Shown here piece by piece: positions 53,548 to 63,790 of a stretch of 64,000 nt of DNA. The stretch is taken from NCBI RefSeq assembly GCF_001440345.1, contig NZ_LJYX01000017.1:186001-250000 (forward strand). Direction: 5' to 3'. The position numbers and the translations under genes were made by a program. The first letter of the stretch is position 1. Each line of letters opens with the position of its first letter. The notes under the pieces are model-generated. The model had not been told where the DNA came from. It did not search any database and worked only from the letters and a program-made list of their open reading frames with translations. Source of the DNA: Colwellia sp. TT2012. GTDB taxonomy: Bacteria; Pseudomonadota; Gammaproteobacteria; Enterobacterales; Alteromonadaceae.

Positions 53548-53584
53548 AAAGGCTGCTAAATAGTAATATTTAGCAGCCTTTTCA
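53548..53584. terminator. Bidirectional rho-independent terminator after dnaK
   Basis: AAAGGCTGCTAAATA and TATTTAGCAGCCTTT form a perfect 15-bp stem around GTAA, followed by T residues and preceded by A residues. It lies between convergent dnaK and the PpiC gene. Confidence 0.92.
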
Positions 53585-53619: not shown

Positions 53620-54453
53620 TTAAATCTGCTTAACTTGGTACTCAACAAACAAACGTTGATAAAATTTAGCTAAGGTTTGTTGGCGTTGTTGATTAAACCA
53701 AGCTTGTTTTACTTGCCCTCGCACCGCCGCTAAAGATTGCAGTTCTCCGCCTTGTTTAGCGTTCAACTTAACAATATGCACACCATAACCAGACTTGATA
53801 TCTGGCAACCATTTACCAAGTTCCATAGCCACTAAAGCATTAGCAAAATCACTACCAAAATAGCGTGCAACTTGAGAAAACGACATATTGTGGTATTCAT
53901 ATTCCAAATAGATATTGTCGGATAAGCTTAATAAATTTTCTTTAGTCTGTTCACTAACGGTTAATGACTTTATTTTCGCGACAATGGTCTGCATCTCGCC
54001 GTCAATATCGTCATGCTTTTGAAGATTAAAATATAATTGCACAAAACTAAATAACTGCTCTTTACGGTATTCTTCACTGTGCTTTGTCAAAAACACCGTT
54101 AGCTGCTCTTCACTAGGTGTTAAACTTGCCACGGTATCTTCAACAATAAACTCTAATTTTTGTTGGATACGTTTTTGAATGATAGAGTCGCCATCAAGTA
54201 GACCTAGTTCTTTACCCTTCTGATAAGCCACCTGCTCTTTAAAGTAGTTGTTCACTAAGGCGTCAAATTCTTCCTTGCTTGGTGGTCGTTGTCGGGTTTT
54301 TTCAAAACTGTAGTTAAGTTGCGCTATTTTAGCGGCTGAAAGTGTTATTTCATGATCACTTGCTTGGTTATCACTGACCAAGGCATAAAAATAAAAAAGC
54401 GCCGCGCCCAACAGTAAAAAATGCAGTAACGGCTCTTTTAATAAAGTTTTCAT
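53620..54453 (-). CDS. PpiC-type peptidyl-prolyl isomerase, membrane-anchored
   Basis: This 277-residue protein has one N-terminal membrane anchor (about 9-26, LLHFLLLGAALFYFYALV) and a periplasmic SurA/PpiC-like chain. Residues 35-130 are a helical chaperone-like domain (PPSKEEFDALVNNYFKEQVAY). About 140-245 is a parvulin domain, with LGKWLPDIKSGYGVHIVKL as its conserved end. It likely helps fold exported proteins. It is the last gene of a leftward operon that begins at 60924 with a barrel gene, which suggests a client within that operon. Confidence 0.83.
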   Translation of the reverse strand: MKTLLKEPLLHFLLLGAALFYFYALVSDNQASDHEITLSAAKIAQLNYSFEKTRQRPPSKEEFDALVNNYFKEQVAYQKGKELGLLDGDSIIQKRIQQKLEFIVEDTVASLTPSEEQLTVFLTKHSEEYRKEQLFSFVQLYFNLQKHDDIDGEMQTIVAKIKSLTVSEQTKENLLSLSDNIYLEYEYHNMSFSQVARYFGSDFANALVAMELGKWLPDIKSGYGVHIVKLNAKQGGELQSLAAVRGQVKQAWFNQQRQQTLAKFYQRLFVEYQVKQI

Positions 54454-54493
54454 ATTTTTCCTTTTATTCTATTATCCTAAAGTGCTGATTAAT

Positions 54494-56494
54494 TTAGCCC
54501 TTAGAGTTATACCAAATAGGCGAAGTATAAGCGCGTTCTTGGGTTTTTAACTTAATGCCTTCAGGCATAGAAGTTACCTGATAACGCACGGCGTCATAAG
54601 CAGTCCAACGTGGTGTTGGAATTTCTATCGCGCGGACATAATAAAACGCTTTTTCGCTAGCATCAAAGTCTGGATCTTGCCATAGGGTTTCCAGTTGAGC
54701 GGCGCCAATGGTATTGGTCCAAGTGGGAATGGACAAATCTACCGTATCACCTACTGCCGGCAATTTACCTTTAGCATTGACCTTACGCTTTCCTGAGTCT
54801 TTACCTGACCAAGCAACATCGTATACTTTTTCATGGGCTTTACCCTTGTTGTCAACCCAACCTTTGATCACTTGTACTCGGTCTAAATTAGCACCGTCAG
54901 GATCGCGCAAGGCACGAATTAATAAACTCGGTGTTTGTCCTTTTTTAGCACTGGCTAAATCACCGCCCATGGGTACACCTTTGTCATAACCGACACTGGC
55001 AATATCGCGCTGTTTAAGATCGTCCTGGTCAAAATCATAACCGGCAAAAACACGTAAGCGAATACGTGGTCCGGTAGTGGCATACACCTCTTTGCGCTTC
55101 ATCGCATCAAAGATAGCCGCTCGGGTATTTGATGTTGCCCAAACTGCTGTTGGCCCAGGTGTCGCATAACGCCAAGCGTCATAACCTATATCAAGTTTCT
55201 TGTTATACTTGCCCGGTTGGTTAAGACGTTTTTTCGACGGCTCCATCCAGGCAAAGGCACCAAAAAAGTTATCGTCACTTTGAGTCACTAAGGAAGTATG
55301 CAGATCACCACCACCAACAAAACCTAATTTGAATGGATTAATACCCAATTCAGTTTCTAATAACAAACCATTTTTTAACGCGGCTCGAGTATATTCAGTG
55401 GCTAACATGGCATCGGTTTTTTTTGTGGTTAAATCAAGATTGCCAAAGTCCCACGTTTCATAATCAGCAAATTCATCATCAGGTGATAATATTGGATGAG
55501 TTTCACTATCACCTTTAGTTTGCCCCACTTCTACCAGTTTTTCCCATTTGGCGCGCTCGGTGACATAGGCTAAATCAAATTTTGCGCCATTGTTAAAATC
55601 ATCTTGCAGAGCAAATAACCAACCATTGGATAAGTTACCATTGTGCGGAATGGCAATGGCTTTACCACCGGTATTTGCTTCATAGTCTGCTAACCACTGC
55701 CACAAATCTTGCGGGTTTGGGCTACCAATGGGCGCGGTCATAGTAAAAGGCAATACTTGCAAGGCACGGTCTGGTCCATCACGTAAAATAATATTACGAT
55801 GCAGATTATTACCCTTAACCATGGAGGTCCATTCGTAGGAAATCATAGTAGTAAATCGATGGGGTTCATTAAATTCTTCCGCCGCTTGTACCAAATCTTG
55901 CCAAGTACGGCTATAACCTGGATTGCCCGGCTGATACACTAAAGCACTAGAAAGTTCACCATTGGCAAAGGCCGAGATTAAATCAAAAGAAGCTTGTTTA
56001 GCGTCGGCACCACCTTTACTAAAGCGTCGATGAAATTCAGCACCTTGTTCATCGGCCATGATATTTTCAGTGCCTTTTAAGATATCGGTGATCACACCCA
56101 TGCCATCGGTATGTTCAGTTAAACAAATAAAATCTAATGGTCGGTCTAATTTTACTGGCTGATTGGTATTACTTAATACTTCTTCCCCCCGGGCAAAACG
56201 ATATAGATCGCGTGGCATTAACGTGGTGCCCCCGCCACCGGCATCGGCAGAAAGTGCTGAATGAATATGAGTTTCACCAAAAAGTAATTGGGTTGGGTAG
56301 TCTCGATCGGCATAGGGTGAAAAATTAGCTTTACTCACCTTTACTTGGCTGGCTTTATTTGGTTTTTCTTCAATGAGTTTAACTTTTTTAATCGGTGAAG
56401 CTGTAACACTAGCCTTAGTTTGGTTTTGTTCGCCGCAGGCCGCTAGGCTTAAACTGGCGATACACAGTGCTAAAATTGATTTTTTATACATCAC
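54494..56494 (-). CDS. DUF3604 lipoprotein, second copy in operon
   Basis: This 666-residue lipoprotein (LSLAACGE, Cys20) has a DUF3604 domain. PHP-like metal motifs are visible: LFGETHIHSALSADAGG (His76, His78), CLTEHTDGMG (Glu127, His128), AIPHNGNLSNGW and VGGGDLHTSLV, consistent with a metal-dependent hydrolase fold. The C-terminal PRIRLRVFAGYDFDQDD and IEIPTPRWTAYDAVRYQ are shared with the paralogue at 57642-59579. Function is unknown to me. It lies 40 nt upstream of the PpiC gene and 79 nt after HupE. Confidence 0.85.
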   Translation of the reverse strand: MMYKKSILALCIASLSLAACGEQNQTKASVTASPIKKVKLIEEKPNKASQVKVSKANFSPYADRDYPTQLLFGETHIHSALSADAGGGGTTLMPRDLYRFARGEEVLSNTNQPVKLDRPLDFICLTEHTDGMGVITDILKGTENIMADEQGAEFHRRFSKGGADAKQASFDLISAFANGELSSALVYQPGNPGYSRTWQDLVQAAEEFNEPHRFTTMISYEWTSMVKGNNLHRNIILRDGPDRALQVLPFTMTAPIGSPNPQDLWQWLADYEANTGGKAIAIPHNGNLSNGWLFALQDDFNNGAKFDLAYVTERAKWEKLVEVGQTKGDSETHPILSPDDEFADYETWDFGNLDLTTKKTDAMLATEYTRAALKNGLLLETELGINPFKLGFVGGGDLHTSLVTQSDDNFFGAFAWMEPSKKRLNQPGKYNKKLDIGYDAWRYATPGPTAVWATSNTRAAIFDAMKRKEVYATTGPRIRLRVFAGYDFDQDDLKQRDIASVGYDKGVPMGGDLASAKKGQTPSLLIRALRDPDGANLDRVQVIKGWVDNKGKAHEKVYDVAWSGKDSGKRKVNAKGKLPAVGDTVDLSIPTWTNTIGAAQLETLWQDPDFDASEKAFYYVRAIEIPTPRWTAYDAVRYQVTSMPEGIKLKTQERAYTSPIWYNSKG

Positions 56495-56573
56495 AGTTCC
56501 TTATGTTTATCGTTACTATATTTAGTTTTAGTTTTTGTCGCATAACTCTTAATTAGGCTAGCTATCGAATTTT

Positions 56574-57638
56574 TTAAAACAACATCACTCGCTCGATCAG
56601 CCACATACTGGCAATAGAGCCGATCAAATAGGCATTAATTTTTTCTACTTTTTTCATGCCAGCTTTGCTGATATCGGTTAGTCTTTTCACTGAAAAAATC
56701 ACCAATATTACACTAGCAATAAACAACAGCTGCCCTATCTCGACCCCGACATTGAAAAATGCCAAGGCCAAAAACTGATCGTTTTTTGGTAGTCCTAACT
56801 CTAATAACACCGAAGCAAAACCAAAACCGTGCAGCAAACCAAAGCTGCTCGATACCGCAACAGGATAACGATATGTTAAGGACTCTTCTGGCGTTTTTTT
56901 AACGGTATTTTTCACTATTTCAGTGGCTAGAAAAACAATGCTCAAAGCGATCACCGCCTCAACCACCAGTATGGGTAACTGCACTAGGTTCAAGGTGCTC
57001 AATACCAAAGTGATGGAATGCGCTAAGGTGAAACCTGTGATCGCCCACAAAAGTTTTTTAACGGTAGAGGCAATCAATAACAAACATAAAACAAACAGTA
57101 AGTGGTCGTAGCCGGCAAGAATATGTTCGATACCAAAAACGACGTAGCTTTGTATAGTTTGCCATGACGATGGACTGGCAACAAAGGTATAGCTTGGCCG
57201 AGCAGGTGTTAATCGTACTGAATAATCATTATCAATACTTTTATAGTTAAGCATCACTTCGACATCAGTTTTTTCTAAGTTGAAGATAGTCAGCGTTTTA
57301 TCAGCCAAACTTTGCGAAGTTATTAGCGTAAAAGATTGAATATTAGCGCCATTGAGCAAAGCTGGCGCTGCTTTTTTACTGAATTTCACCCCCTGACTAA
57401 ATTGTAAACTAAGTGGCGCATTGCCCGTAGCAGCTGGTTGTTTCCACATGCCCTGATAACAACTATTGCTCACTATAGTTGTATCACTACAAGTGACAGC
57501 TTCAATTTGTAAATAAGCCAGTTGAATTTTATTTGCTTTTGCTACATTACTATTAATAACAACAAGTAACAAAATAAAAAGGAATATCCCAAAGCGGGAT
57601 ATTCCTTTTATTGTTTTTTTATCACTGAAAAACATCAT
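56574..57638 (-). CDS. HupE/UreJ-family membrane protein
   Basis: This 354-residue protein has an N-terminal signal or anchor (about 14-35), a periplasmic beta-rich domain (about 36-165, with two Cys pairs in TCSDTTIVSNSC) and a C-terminal membrane block of six or more helices. The core VSSSFGLLHGFGFASVLLE and GYDHLLFVLCLLLIAST are the HupE/UreJ signature. Relatives are linked to nickel or cobalt permeation, but this long form is not proven to be a metal transporter. It sits 3 nt after the DUF3604 gene at 57642 and is firmly in the operon. Confidence 0.85.
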   Translation of the reverse strand: MMFFSDKKTIKGISRFGIFLFILLLVVINSNVAKANKIQLAYLQIEAVTCSDTTIVSNSCYQGMWKQPAATGNAPLSLQFSQGVKFSKKAAPALLNGANIQSFTLITSQSLADKTLTIFNLEKTDVEVMLNYKSIDNDYSVRLTPARPSYTFVASPSSWQTIQSYVVFGIEHILAGYDHLLFVLCLLLIASTVKKLLWAITGFTLAHSITLVLSTLNLVQLPILVVEAVIALSIVFLATEIVKNTVKKTPEESLTYRYPVAVSSSFGLLHGFGFASVLLELGLPKNDQFLALAFFNVGVEIGQLLFIASVILVIFSVKRLTDISKAGMKKVEKINAYLIGSIASMWLIERVMLF

Positions 57639-57641
57639 AAA

Positions 57642-59579
57642 CTAATGGGCAGCGTCTTGTGCTGGGGTAAACCAAATCGGCGAACTCCAAGCACGCTCTT
57701 GAATAGTGGCTTGCACATCGGTTAATAGTGGTAAATTATTACGCACTGCATCATAAGTTGACCAACGCGGCGTCGGTATCTCAATAACACGCGCATAATA
57801 CAGTGTCGGTAACTCTGGCTTAAATTCATTATCGGTAAAGCTACCCATTAACATCGCTGCACCAATGGCATTGGTATATTTAGCGGTGGTTAAATCAACG
57901 GTATTACCCACTTTAGGTAAATTACCTTGAGCGTCAGCTTTACGATTGTCAGACCAAACAACATTGATAATTTTTTCATGTTGCTCGCCCTGTAGATCTA
58001 CCCAACCTTTGATGATTTGAATACGATCTAAGTTAGCGCCAATACTATCTTTGACCGCCCAAACATTGAAGACCGGAGCACTTTTAGCACCTTCAATGGT
58101 ACCGCCCATAGGCACACCTTTGTCGTAGCCTTCTTTGACCATGGCATTGATGTCATTATGATTAGTGGTTAAGTGCTCGCCCGCAAAAATCCTAACCTGA
58201 ATTCTTGGTCCAGAAGTGCCGTACACCTCGCGGTTATACATGGCATCCCAAATAGCGCCACGAGTATTTTTCTCTGCCCACACACCAGTAATTGAACCTA
58301 TGCTTTCATCTTTAGCATCGAGCCATTCAGGTACTTGCCCTGTTCTGCGTAACTCTGGGGTATTATCGGCCGCACCATGGCCACCGATGTAGTTGTCTTC
58401 GTCCACATTAGCCATTAAGCCATTGTGGCTATCGGTACCACCATTGAAGCCTAATTTATAGGGATTTACGCCTAAATTTTGATAATGCTTTAAGCCTTCA
58501 ATCACGCCCCAGCGGACAAAGTTACGTTTATCAAATTCACGATTACTAAATTTTGCTATCGAGTCGGCATTTTCAAAATCAGCAAATTCATCTGCTGGCC
58601 AAAATTTACGATGCACTTCCGAGTTGCCTTTAATTTGCATCATTTCGATAGTACGTTCAAAGTGACTACGCAGCTCGGCATACTCTTTAGTAATAGGCTT
58701 GCCGGTAGAGTCATTCGGGTTAAACATCATCAACTTAGAGGCATTGGAATTATGTGGAATGGCAAGTAAAGTGCTACCTAGTTTTTCTTGCTGAGCCATC
58801 CAATTCCATAAACCCTCTTCTCGGTTGTAGTCGGCGTAACCAACAGGATACTCTGGTACTACCATATCTCTAAACAATACATTACGATGTAAGTTGCCGC
58901 CTTTTGGCGCGCCACTCCATTCAAATGCCGCCAAGGTAGTAAATACACCCGGTTTATATTCATCTTTTGTTGCTTGTAAAATAATTTGCCAAGCACTCTT
59001 AGTGCTTTCAATGCCAGTATAAAATGGTGGATGGGCTGGTTTGGCATCTCCTCGGTTCACTGAGATAACGTATTTAATAAACCAGCGTAATTGATCTTTA
59101 TACTCAGTTAAGTCACGCAATTCTTTTAATTGCGCTTGGTTATGGCCAACGGCTTCTTCATCAAAAGTAGTATACATTTCACCGATATATTCAGCGTGAT
59201 CGGTAGTGGCAGCAAAATCTAATGGTCTATTCAACTTATGCATTTCCCCATTGATCATTTTTTCTTGCCCTTGAGCAAATTGCAAAGAATCAAGCGGGCT
59301 CATACGATTACCCCCAATATAGGCATCTAAAGAAAACTTAGTATGCATATGGGTTTCACCAAAATAGGCGTTTTTTAGTGGATTGGAGGGCGCATTATCT
59401 TCTTGCTCTTTAATGGTTTGTGCTCTCGCGGCGACAGATTTATCTTTATTTTTAGTTGTGTTGTTTTGACTCACATCTTTAACATGAGTTTGATCTTTTT
59501 GTGAGTCTGTTTGCGGCTCAGAGCAGCCGCCTAATGCTAATAAAACCGTAACGGCGATTAGCGAAATTTTAGTATTCAT
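57642..59579 (-). CDS. DUF3604 lipoprotein, first copy in operon
   Basis: This 645-residue lipoprotein has signal LALGGCSE (Cys19), a low-complexity linker (about 25-65) and a DUF3604 domain. The PHP-like motifs are AYFGETHMHTKFSLDAYIGG (His77, His79), AATTDHAEYIGEM (Asp127, His128), AIPHNSNASKL and GGTDSHNGLM. Compared with the second copy, motif two has Asp instead of Glu and motif four SH instead of LH, so the two may differ in metal or substrate. It follows the barrel gene by 49 nt and precedes the HupE gene by 3 nt. Confidence 0.86.
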   Translation of the reverse strand: MNTKISLIAVTVLLALGGCSEPQTDSQKDQTHVKDVSQNNTTKNKDKSVAARAQTIKEQEDNAPSNPLKNAYFGETHMHTKFSLDAYIGGNRMSPLDSLQFAQGQEKMINGEMHKLNRPLDFAATTDHAEYIGEMYTTFDEEAVGHNQAQLKELRDLTEYKDQLRWFIKYVISVNRGDAKPAHPPFYTGIESTKSAWQIILQATKDEYKPGVFTTLAAFEWSGAPKGGNLHRNVLFRDMVVPEYPVGYADYNREEGLWNWMAQQEKLGSTLLAIPHNSNASKLMMFNPNDSTGKPITKEYAELRSHFERTIEMMQIKGNSEVHRKFWPADEFADFENADSIAKFSNREFDKRNFVRWGVIEGLKHYQNLGVNPYKLGFNGGTDSHNGLMANVDEDNYIGGHGAADNTPELRRTGQVPEWLDAKDESIGSITGVWAEKNTRGAIWDAMYNREVYGTSGPRIQVRIFAGEHLTTNHNDINAMVKEGYDKGVPMGGTIEGAKSAPVFNVWAVKDSIGANLDRIQIIKGWVDLQGEQHEKIINVVWSDNRKADAQGNLPKVGNTVDLTTAKYTNAIGAAMLMGSFTDNEFKPELPTLYYARVIEIPTPRWSTYDAVRNNLPLLTDVQATIQERAWSSPIWFTPAQDAAH

Positions 59580-59628
59580 AACTTATCCCTATATTTTTAG
59601 TAATTCCGATATTGCTAAATTGTTACCG

Positions 59629-60924
59629 TTAGAAGTTCTCGTTCAAACGTACATACATAGCACTAGCACCATCTGCACCTCGGCCAAAATCAATACCAAC
59701 ATTAGTACCCGTTTTCTTGTCCAACATAAATCTAAGACCTATACCATAACCCGGCTTAATGTATTGACCCAAGTTAATATCATTAAGGCCGGTAGCACTA
59801 GCTGTTGAGGCATTTACTTGTACCACGCCGCCAACGGGAACATCCCACCACATATTAAATAAATGTTTACGATATTCTACACCAACGTAGGCATAATCTT
59901 GGCCGCGAAACCGCCCTTGTACGTAACCGGTACCACTGCGAGCATATTGATCATAACCGGTAGCAGGTAACGTCATATAAGGTACATCACCACTGGTGAT
60001 AAAATTACCATAAGCCCAAAAGGCTAAAACATCTGGGTATTTTTTCCCTGGGGTAAGGTTATGAAACTTACGATATTCTAACCACAAGCTGCTGGACTTT
60101 TGATCTGAGCCTAAAAATTCGGCATTGTATCGATAAGTGGCTAGCGCATATTGGCCTTTTGCAGGATTAATGGCGTTATCACGACTATCGAACATCACAT
60201 TCAGTGACAGCCCCGACAAGGTGTAACCCGTTGGGTCAAAACCATTAAGCTGACTATAGCTATAGTGTGAGGTAATTACTTTCTCTTCTGCGTTTAAGTC
60301 AAGCATATTATCTTGAATGTCTTTATATAAATCAAGATGATAACCAAGACCCACATACCAATCACCATGAATGCGTTTTAATGCGGTTTCATAAAAGCGG
60401 TAATATTTAAATTCCATCATTTGGGTTTTATCGTAAGTACCCGAAAATATATCACCATCAAATTCAAATTCTTGGCCACTGGTGACTAGCTTGGATGAAT
60501 CCGGACCGGTACCTAAACCATAGGTTGGTTGTGACGTATCAAGATAGCGCCAATCACCTAACAGCGCCCAGTCGTTATTGGCGGTAAAACCCGTACTTTT
60601 AAATAAGAAGATGCTTTGCCCTAACGAAGTTTTTGCTAGTCCTGCAATCATGTTAGATACCTTGGTGGTTTTCGGGTCACCAAAATAATAACTGGCCGAG
60701 GCACCAACGCCATAAATAGTACCATTGGCGGGGTTATAACCAATAACAGGGATAGGGGTAAGATAAAGTTTGTTGGCTTCTAGGCCAGAGTTCACCGCTA
60801 CTTTTTCTGTTGCTGGCTGTTTGTCAGTAACAGAGTTTTCTTCTGCGGCCATGGCCGATTGAGATATGCCAATAGTTAAAAAAATAGTAGCTATTTTTTT
60901 AAGAGTGTTAATTTTGTGTTCCAT
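59629..60924 (-). CDS. BamA-like outer-membrane barrel heading the DUF3604 operon
   Basis: This 431-residue exported protein has a signal peptide to about residue 26 (SAMAAEE) and a short linker, then a beta-barrel. YLTPIPVIGYNPANGTIYGVGAS, the DSRDNAINPAKGQYALATY motif and a loop with GYVQGRFRGQDY (the RGF/RGQ region) are typical of the Omp85 surface-antigen group; the end is MYVRLNENF with a terminal Phe. There are no POTRA domains. It is first in the five-gene operon with two DUF3604 proteins, HupE and PpiC. Confidence 0.83.
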   Translation of the reverse strand: MEHKINTLKKIATIFLTIGISQSAMAAEENSVTDKQPATEKVAVNSGLEANKLYLTPIPVIGYNPANGTIYGVGASASYYFGDPKTTKVSNMIAGLAKTSLGQSIFLFKSTGFTANNDWALLGDWRYLDTSQPTYGLGTGPDSSKLVTSGQEFEFDGDIFSGTYDKTQMMEFKYYRFYETALKRIHGDWYVGLGYHLDLYKDIQDNMLDLNAEEKVITSHYSYSQLNGFDPTGYTLSGLSLNVMFDSRDNAINPAKGQYALATYRYNAEFLGSDQKSSSLWLEYRKFHNLTPGKKYPDVLAFWAYGNFITSGDVPYMTLPATGYDQYARSGTGYVQGRFRGQDYAYVGVEYRKHLFNMWWDVPVGGVVQVNASTASATGLNDINLGQYIKPGYGIGLRFMLDKKTGTNVGIDFGRGADGASAMYVRLNENF

Positions 60925-62080: not shown

Positions 62081-62162
62081 AAAATTAGACATCACATAAA
62101 ACTCAATAAATAACGAACAATTCTAAGTTAATTATTTTACTAAAAATAAGGGAAATATAAGT

Positions 62163-63727
62163 ATGATAAGTGTTAAAAAGAGCGCGTTACTGCTGTTACC
62201 CCTAATAGCCGTTGCCAGTTTTATCCTGGGTATGCCCTATGGACAAGCCGCAAAAAAACCTAACATTCTAGTGATCATGGGCGAGGACATTGGCTCGAAC
62301 AATATTAGCGCCTATAGCCCTGGTGTAATGGGCTATCGCACGCCAAATATTGACCGAATTGCCAATGAATGGGTACTATTCACCGATCATTATGCCCAAC
62401 CCAGTTGTACCGCAGGCCTAGCCTCTTTTATTATGGGCACTTACCCAATCCGCTCAGGCATGAACACTGTTGGTATGGTTGGCAGCCATTTAGGCATGCA
62501 AGCCGTTGATGTCACTCTGGCCGAAGTACTGAAATAGCTAGGCTATATGACCGGCCAATTTGGTAAAAACCATTTAGGTGATCTCAATAAACATTTACCG
62601 ATTTTACATGGTTTTGATGAATTTTATGGTCACTTGTACCACTTAAATGTGCTGCAAGAACCCTTAGATAATGACTACCCTAAGGGCAATAAGTTTTTCA
62701 AAAAAATATGGTCCGCGCGGTATCCTACATACTTGGGCCAGCGACACCTATGATAGGTCAATACCTGATGTTAGATTCGGCGAAATCGGTAAACAAAAAA
62801 TCATCGATACTTGCCTGCCTGATGAAGCACGTTTAGAGCAACTAGATACCGAATATTTCGATGTCGCTTTTAAATTTTTGTAAAAAGCGAAAAAAATAAA
62901 AAAACCTTCTTTATGTGGTTAAATCCAGCGCGGATACATGTATTTAATCGCGAGCAAAAAAAACATCATGAACAAGTTCGTCAGTTTACTAGCTACGATG
63001 ACAATCATGGTGCGGGTATGTTACAGCATGATGAAGATATTGGTCGCTTGTTAGCCAAGTTGGAAGAACTTGGTTTTCTCAACAATACCATTATTGTTTA
63101 TACCACGGATAACGGTCCTGAACATAACACCTATCCTGAAGGCGGTACCACACCATTTCGTGGTGAAAAAATGACTACCTGGGAAGGCGCGTCCGGATGC
63201 CAATGTTAATTCGTTGGCCTGGTCATATCAAAGCGGGTTCTGAAATTAACGGCATTCAAGCACATATGGATATCTTCACCACCTTAGCTGCTGCAGGGAT
63301 TGATACTGATGACTTGGCAGAACGTCTTAAAAAAGGCGATAAAGTTGGCACTGATACCGTTAAAAAAGTTTACTTAGATGGTGTGAAAAATCTGGATTAC
63401 TGGACAGGAAAAAGTGATAAATCAGAACATAATTACTGTATCTATTGGGCCGAATCCAGTCCAAATGCTATTCGTGTTAATCAATGGAAAGCACATTTTG
63501 CTGTACGTGACGGCTATTACGGCACGACTACGAAAATTGAACTGCCTTGGGTCTATAGTTTACGGCAAGACCCGTTTGAATCATACGGACAGGATCCCAG
63601 ACCACCAGCAAATTTTTTGCAACACAAGTCTTGGATGTTCAATATAGTGGCCGCAAAAATGGGCGCCCATATTCAAACACTGATAGAGTTTCCACCCAGC
63701 CAAAAAACCGACCACGCTCTCCATTGA
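62163..63727 (+). pseudogene. Decayed arylsulfatase
   Basis: A full-length sulfatase of about 520 residues can be traced from a signal peptide and KKPNILVIMGEDIGSNNISA. It continues through TAG (62535), a frameshift at the A-run near 62700 (then [17 protein letters not shown]), TAA (62881), FFMWLNPARIHVFNRE and VYTTDNGPEHNTYPEGGTT, a frameshift near 63190, and MLIRWPGHIKAGSEINGIQA to the end. The formylglycine motif should read CTAGR; here it is CTAGL (Leu86), so the key Arg is lost by a CTA codon. The HAD remnant lies 82 nt upstream. Confidence 0.92.
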
Positions 63728-63790
63728 GAAACTGGTGGCCGAATCGATGAAAAACCACACGGCAGATTAAATTAAGCTGTTGAGGTTAAG

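Follow-up and report, generated by a model that had tools for sequence, protein, structure and literature searches.

A widespread DUF3604, PpiC-type foldase and HupE/UreJ_2 permease cassette and its enlarged version in Colwellia

Introduction

The described systems closest to the genes examined here are a group of metal-binding permeases and an exported phosphodiesterase. According to PMC12537917, the anglerase Ang-1 is a Cu/Ni-binding domain on a HupE/UreJ-2 permease, with ZrgA (8F1B) as the closest fold of that domain; capture of metal for uptake is proposed, and metallophosphatases are found near Ang-2. Sb-PDE of Sphingobium sp. TCM1 is an exported zinc phosphodiesterase of the PHP superfamily with 2.1 Zn per enzyme (passages of PMC5460133). 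The present analysis concerns a five-gene operon of Colwellia sp. TT2012 that encodes two DUF3604 proteins, a HupE/UreJ_2 permease, a PpiC-type foldase, and an outer-membrane barrel. The operon lies in a stretch of 64,000 nt (contig NZ_LJYX01000017.1, positions 186,001-250,000), which is referred to as the window and from whose start all coordinates are counted.

DUF3604 has no assigned function in Pfam. Here its genes are found to travel with two partners whose type can be understood, and to do so in widely differing bacteria, among them rhizobia and a Ruegeria. The linkage offers an experimental handle on metal acquisition by exported metalloenzymes and on the function of DUF3604 itself, and assigns particular client enzymes to the anglerase-type permeases, a recently named group. 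The original prediction for this locus knew of no described system with these parts. No description of the cassette was found in the literature searched, which covers few subscription journals; there, DUF3604 appears in a single paper, as a row in a Chlamydia transposon table, and PF12228 and PF13795 gave no matches.

The five-gene operon of the window

Five minus-strand open reading frames (ORFs) occupy positions 60924-53620, with gaps of 49, 3, 79, and 40 nt in order, and all five proteins pass curated Pfam cut-offs. Coordinates and families agree with those predicted originally. In 5' to 3' order the genes are:

59629..60924, minus strand: Omp85-like single-domain outer-membrane barrel, first gene (PF01103, 25.8 bits)
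57642..59579, minus strand: DUFa, DUF3604 protein of a divergent clade (649 bits), PHP motifs intact, lipobox-like N-terminus
56574..57638, minus strand: HupE/UreJ_2 permease with a predicted N-terminal ZrgA/Ang-1-like periplasmic beta-sandwich (152 bits)
54494..56494, minus strand: DUFb, DUF3604 protein with a predicted PHP fold and C-terminal beta domain, lipobox-like N-terminus (749 bits)
53620..54453, minus strand: PpiC-type parvulin-like foldase, member of the PpiC subfamily of the cassette (PF13145, 33.1 bits)

DUFa and DUFb are 36% identical. Both had been predicted to be lipoproteins, and a lipobox-like LAAC or LGGC was read by eye at both N-termini. A simple lipobox pattern was present in just 13 of 94 DUF3604 sequences including these two (start codons picked mechanically), so lipoprotein character is not a trait of the family.

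A cassette of DUF3604, PpiC and HupE/UreJ_2

DUF3604, a subfamily of PpiC-type foldases, and a subfamily of HupE/UreJ_2 permeases form a real cassette that travels together. The DUF3604 sample comprised 80 named loci, which scored highest against an alignment taken for the most part from cassette loci and are hence biased toward relatives of the query. In 47 of these loci HupE and PpiC are both found within 6 kb of a DUF3604 gene, 2 have HupE alone, and 31 have neither; this count accepts weak HupE matches of 61 to 99 bits (L034, L052, L054, L081; L-numbers label the compared genome stretches), while scoring of states on the tree required more than 150 bits. Among the 43 loci with more than 6 kb of flank on each side, both partners were present in 29 and neither in 14.

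The linkage was also observed in a class survey of 369 genomes. The cassette PpiC subfamily was represented by 21 places above 100 bits (next scores 95, 87, and 84), matches below being mostly long proteins of PpiD size; the window PpiC scored 298 bits, but is itself a row of the query alignment. A HupE_UreJ_2 gene was found within 3 kb of the PpiC subfamily in 20 of the 21 places, and DUF3604 within 6 kb in 15. By genome, 18 encoded DUF3604 and PpiC, 5 DUF3604 only, 2 PpiC only, and 344 neither (Fisher p 3.8e-24), and any HupE_UreJ_2 was present in 21 of the 23 DUF3604 genomes (p=1.7e-10); the Fisher p overstates independence because the genomes are related. PpiC was present at only 1 of 40 HupE_UreJ_2 control loci away from DUF3604 (L113). 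All but two of these control HupEs (L113 and the contig-end copy L123) scored below 200 bits against the cassette HupE profile.

The arrangement of the three genes varies. The order is DUF3604-PpiC-HupE in 31 rows, PpiC-HupE-DUF3604 in 15, and convergent in 5. In 27 of 48 pairs the ORF of PpiC has an overlap of precisely 4 nt with that of HupE (starts picked mechanically). Mapped on the DUF3604 tree, the linked rows require at least 12 changes of arrangement, and linked versus unlinked states at least 14; the tree is a quick one with 30 of its 96 inner branches open, it does not exclude horizontal transfer, and it comes with no shuffled control.

Based upon record titles and context, the full cassette also occurs in Alpha-, Beta-, and Gammaproteobacteria, Desulfobacteraceae, Sulfurovum, Nitrospirales, Krumholzibacteriia, and Pyrinomonadaceae, and further in Haloferula, Akkermansiaceae, Prosthecobacter, and a Flavobacteriaceae metagenome-assembled genome (MAG); many of the loci so assigned are MAG contigs and possibly misassigned. 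Two Gemmatimonadota loci among the 80 (L071, L077) were without the full cassette. Annotated NCBI records with the triad side by side include Rhizobium leguminosarum pSK02, Sinorhizobium meliloti RCAM1115, and Ruegeria THAF33, the last with TonB/ExbBD genes on its upstream side and a sulfatase-like gene on its downstream side. An origin as phage or mobile element was rejected: phages gave no match, and the 79 plasmid records that match are mostly from Rhizobium and Sinorhizobium.

The original prediction would have fallen had the families not co-occurred in other genomes beyond chance. DUF3604, HupE, and PpiC are linked there far beyond chance, so this outcome did not arise, whereas the barrel is not part of the core; likewise, the proposed pair of DUF3604 hydrolases does not extend to the cassette at large, many examples of which hold one DUF3604. 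A separate observation is a 333-residue frame in L146 (G159:C2:46141-46476) that joins a short DUF3604 N-terminal piece to a HupE C-terminal piece, probably a deletion fusion.

DUF3604 as a predicted PHP-type enzyme

DUFa and DUFb match PF12228 with 649 and 749 bits (cut-off 20.4) across almost the whole profile (positions 2-591 and 3-590 of 591). The metal motifs noted originally, HxH, (D/E)H, PHN, and a late DxH, are present in both. All 65 aligned DUF3604 sequences share H76, H78, H128, H284, N285, D397, and H399, and position 127 is Asp in 64 and Glu in DUFb.

A predicted model of DUFb (pLDDT 90.5, 65 sequences) had its best structure matches in 3E38 (Z 15.8, root-mean-square deviation 3.3, 228 aligned) and 2ANU (Z 15.3). 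Leaving aside PsfC (7RTY), the 17 structures listed with a Z of at least 8 either carry a PHP or metal-dependent phosphoesterase title or are PHP-domain proteins (Pol III alpha, EndoQ, RNase AM, 2YB1), and the next match scored Z 4.1. Foldseek alone was weak, with PHP rows first at E ~1e-3, and a second look by VIA was clearer; a sequence search of solved structures returned no DUF3604 relative (best E 0.34). As modelled for DUFb, DUF3604 is thus predicted to fold as a PHP-type metallo-phosphoesterase, which bears out the PHP-like nature suggested originally. The probable reaction of these enzymes is hydrolysis of phosphate (or other) esters, with the periplasm as its site.

The HupE/UreJ_2 permease and the PpiC-type foldase

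The window permease matches PF13795 (HupE_UreJ_2) with 152 bits against a cut-off of 24.5, and permease residues H172, D178, H179, H207, H270, and E300 are present in 58 of 58 aligned cassette HupEs. The predicted model (pLDDT 88) has an N-terminal beta-sandwich, for which the top seven structure matches are all ZrgA (zinc-bound 8F1B, Z 10.5), PA4063 (Z 10.0), or Ang-1 (9GCE, Z 8.2, just slightly above the unrelated receptors that begin at Z 7.5). Foldseek alone was again weak (ZrgA and PA4063 among the first rows, E ~1e-3) and the VIA second look clearer; the sequence search of solved structures gave no HupE match.

When the cleavage site is placed by alignment alone, position 36 directly follows the signal peptide; it is occupied by His in 45 of the 58 cassette HupEs, by Asp in 11, and by Asn in 2. 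The two with Asn36 are the window HupE and L016, and a by-eye reading of the DNA gave Asn at this position also in L181, L182, L184, and L185, which are outside the 58. The HupE clade of the window therefore is without the metal-binding His of anglerases and retains the six permease residues (counted in the window and L016 only).

HupE_UreJ_2 genes were also found beside another metallophosphoesterase-like enzyme. In 7 of the 40 control loci (L098, L101, L105, L112, L118, L124, L133) a SoxB-type gene directly adjoins HupE_UreJ_2 (model TIGR04486 run on L098 only); the SoxB examined scored 21.6 bits for TAT_signal, just below the Pfam cut-off of 22.7. SoxB and HupE together were not found in the literature searched. 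Other contexts were observed as well. In approximately ten loci (L106, L109, L116, L117, L128, L132, L134, and others) another HupE_UreJ_2 group is accompanied by a DUF3240/P-II-like protein and by small proteins rich in His, one of them DUF6488. A further recurrent neighbourhood, in L107, L108, L114, and L127, has HupE_UreJ_2 beside a DUF4331 gene and a TPR gene (families run on L107 only), and large genes resembling CusA-type efflux pumps were seen by eye beside some other HupEs.

The foldase matches PF13145 (Rotamase_2) with 33.1 bits against a cut-off of 27 and has one N-terminal hydrophobic anchor by eye. The sequence search of solved structures gave weak SurA matches only.

Architecture within Colwellia

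DUF3604 is present in 17 of 39 genomes of the genus, from which 20 stretches were compared. The ordinary DUF3604-PpiC-HupE cassette occurs in L186, L187, L188, and L191-L195. A second architecture, consisting of barrel, DUFa, HupE, (sulfatase), DUFb, and PpiC, was found in the window, L181, L182, and L183, while L016 (Colwellia MAG ALOHA_DT_126) has the order barrel-DUFa-HupE-DUFb up to the contig end, and L184 and L185 contain a locus of the window type without DUFb there. The window operon is an enlarged, genus-level version of the widespread cassette. In L183 (L183:9390), a sulfatase-like gene lies inside the operon between HupE and DUFb.

The barrel is a lineage-specific, interchangeable head of this operon. 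Its match to PF01103 passes marginally (25.8 bits against 24), it misses the NCBIfam Omp85_fam (NF047779) cut-off (69.6 against 200 bits), and no POTRA domain was present among its Pfam matches. The first gene is an Omp85-like barrel in the window, L016, L183, and L185, and a Phenol_MetA_deg-type barrel in L181, L182, and L184 (label taken from the L016 homologue), so the outer-membrane slot is filled by unrelated barrels. As the Omp85-like barrel was found in only 2 of the 80 named DUF3604 loci and is exchanged for an unrelated one within the genus, in three close relatives, it was dropped as a core part of the proposed system.

DUFa and DUFb fall into separate clades, that of DUFa including L016_6922, L017_6186, L085_14843, and L057_5626. 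L017 (uncultured Tropicimonas) has two DUF3604 proteins, one in each clade, with a gene of the sulfatase cluster between their genes and a gene of the Phenol_MetA_deg cluster upstream. This matching set hints that the combination of DUFa, DUFb, sulfatase, and barrel is older than the genus.

Neighbouring genes and transcription signals

Beyond the operon, gene remnants and a further barrel gene were recognized by comparison with L016:

61177..62074, plus strand: decayed HAD-like hydrolase gene, transcribed away from the operon; its two main pieces, in different frames, show 79% and 94% identity to the protein that L016 has intact (PF12710)
62157..63767, plus strand: sulfatase gene remnant, upstream of and divergent from the operon, with stops and frame changes; whole in L016
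63877..64000, minus strand: 3' end of a Phenol_MetA_deg-type barrel gene running past the window; on L151, 316 residues align with the L016 protein (PF13557) at 76% identity

The L016 sulfatase matched arylsulfatase and choline-sulfatase models below their cut-offs. Genes that recur around DUF3604 encode sulfatases, FGE-type proteins, and outer-membrane barrels. Sulfatase-profile matches comprised 20 of 1097 genes at 14 of the 80 DUF3604 loci, compared to 0 of 402 genes at the 40 HupE control loci, and Phenol_MetA_deg-type barrels were present at 10 of 80 compared to 0 of 40; both comparisons are biased upward, the profiles having been built from DUF3604 loci and the control loci being shorter.

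Two terminator-like hairpins were located on the operon strand:

53548..53581, minus strand: strong terminator-like hairpin directly after PpiC, 15 pairs with a T-rich tail
57577..57609, minus strand: terminator-like hairpin within HupE codons 10-21 (z -5.7 in the window)

The first is likely the operon end. The second has counterparts at or near the same place in six relatives (z of -4.6 in L016, -3.2 in L181, -2.2 in L182, -6.5 in L183, -3.3 in L184, and -4.0 in L185; segments hand-picked, the L183 start codon uncertain), with a T-run following in 5 of the 7. The sequences of these hairpins fall into three unrelated kinds, for which conserved coding does not account. As a candidate attenuator or mRNA-processing element, the hairpin may leave HupE, DUFb, and PpiC less expressed than the barrel and DUFa, and its position inside HupE leaves room for uneven or separate transcripts. 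Promoter-like sites were not in excess in a scan of the window (26, compared to 26.9 in shuffles).

Proposed role and alternatives

The best explanation overall, to which a probability of about 0.5 is assigned, is that HupE and PpiC help a secreted PHP hydrolase to mature or otherwise serve it. The DUF3604 enzymes would leave the cytoplasm by the Sec route and work as metal-dependent (phospho)esterases in the periplasm, PpiC would help them fold at the inner membrane, and HupE would gather a transition metal by means of its periplasmic beta-sandwich and handle it such that the apo-PHP enzyme receives its metals or the surrounding metal balance is kept. Export, metal loading, and folding help are steps that we infer; the likeliest role of HupE and PpiC is bringing DUF3604 to its active, metal-bound form. 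In the Colwellia lineage, DUFa would add a second PHP enzyme and the exchangeable barrel would admit substrate, and the genes for the sulfatase and HAD-like hydrolase, whole beside the operon in L016, have decayed in the window. A stronger version can be put forward only tentatively, in which the cassette is a dedicated metalation-and-folding line and HupE presents or exports metal to the periplasm, or hands it from the beta-sandwich directly to a nascent enzyme held by PpiC. Were this so, it would to our knowledge be the first machinery of this sort for an exported PHP enzyme, with the SoxB/HupE pairs as a second example of the principle.

Several observations weigh against this maturation role. 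Neither HupE nor PpiC is nearby in 14 of the 43 well-flanked DUF3604 loci, and in the class survey HupE lies within 10 kb at only 18 of 38 DUF3604 places, those without it being often on short contigs and in some cases on long ones. In the nine-row clade of DUFb, all four other rows with enough flank are without HupE and PpiC, which is evidence against a strict need for these partners. Parvulins use a catalytic His pair. At the first position of the pair, 25 of 34 PpiC rows have Gln (Q139 in the window) and 9 have His; the second is His in 34 of 34 (H226). The original proposal that PpiC folds one of the DUF3604 proteins goes no further than the linkage. The window HupE and L016 have Asn in place of the mature N-terminal His, hence Ang-1-like Cu/Ni capture cannot be assumed for the window HupE. 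Finally, the characterised HupE is a nickel importer (cited in the passages of PMC12537917), the wrong direction for loading an enzyme exported by Sec. The original prediction of HupE as a partner that handles metal is strengthened by the ZrgA/Ang-1-like N-terminal domain, and supply toward the enzyme would be the less certain part of it, given the importer and the Asn. Direction of transport is the weakest step of the model, and an importer would fit metal scavenging better.

Such scavenging is the most serious competitor, although we consider it doubtful. The secreted PHP enzyme, with sulfatase and barrel in some lineages, would break an organic ligand or ester, HupE would import the freed metal, and PpiC would serve the enzyme. 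HupE-type proteins are importers, and the anglerase work proposes capture for uptake (passages of PMC12537917). TonB/ExbBD genes beside the Ruegeria THAF33 cassette and the upward-biased recurrence of sulfatase matches (14/80 against 0/40 loci) and Phenol_MetA_deg-type barrels (10/80 against 0/40) are also consistent with it. However, no metallophore gene was present among the ten annotated recurrent neighbour clusters, and PHP enzymes need metals themselves, making a link to the enzyme the simpler one.

It is unlikely that HupE carries a hydrolysis product or another small solute instead of metal, the module then being a catabolic uptake route. The recurrence of sulfatases, FGE-type proteins, and outer-membrane barrels near DUF3604 and the interchangeable barrel slot would suit such a route, but the His/Asp/Glu residues of the permease are retained in 58 of 58 sequences and its N-terminal domain resembles metal-binding proteins. 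Most improbable is an inherited operon of three genes with little mutual function, and a chance assembly of the window set of five, since in spite of the 14 of 43 loci without partners and the lineage-specific barrel, the linkage survives at least 12 changes of gene order, spans many phyla by record titles, and leaves PpiC and HupE nearly inseparable (20 of 21).

Comparison with known systems

The maturation role preferred here can be compared with several known enzymes and permeases. The structures nearest to DUFb, 3E38 (BVU_3505, a two-domain PHP protein) and 2ANU (TM0559), share the fold of its catalytic part (Z 15.8 and 15.3), but are only 15-17% identical to it and are titled just predicted phosphoesterases. 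Sb-PDE is the nearest characterised exported PHP enzyme found, according to passages of PMC5460133, and resembles DUF3604 as an exported member of the PHP superfamily with conserved metal motifs. It differs in its 441 residues and Pfam family (PF02811), and HupE and PpiC are not mentioned in those passages.

On the permease side, the Ang-1 and Ang-2 anglerases (Nat Commun 2025; passages of PMC12537917) share with the cassette HupE a signal peptide, a periplasmic beta-sandwich, and a HupE/UreJ_2 permease. The mature His1 of Ang-1 is common to 45 of 58 cassette HupEs, whereas the window HupE has Asn, and the cassette partners differ, neither DUF3604 nor PpiC being a word in the main text of PMC12537917. 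The nickel transporter HupE of Rhizobium leguminosarum, as cited in passages of the same paper, is a HupE/UreJ permease serving a metalloenzyme, namely hydrogenase. The SoxB/HupE_UreJ_2 pairs likewise place a metallophosphoesterase-like enzyme beside HupE_UreJ_2, but with another HupE subfamily, another enzyme family, and no PpiC. Together with the metallophosphatases near Ang-2, these pairs suggest that the pairing of HupE_UreJ_2 with metallohydrolases may be general.

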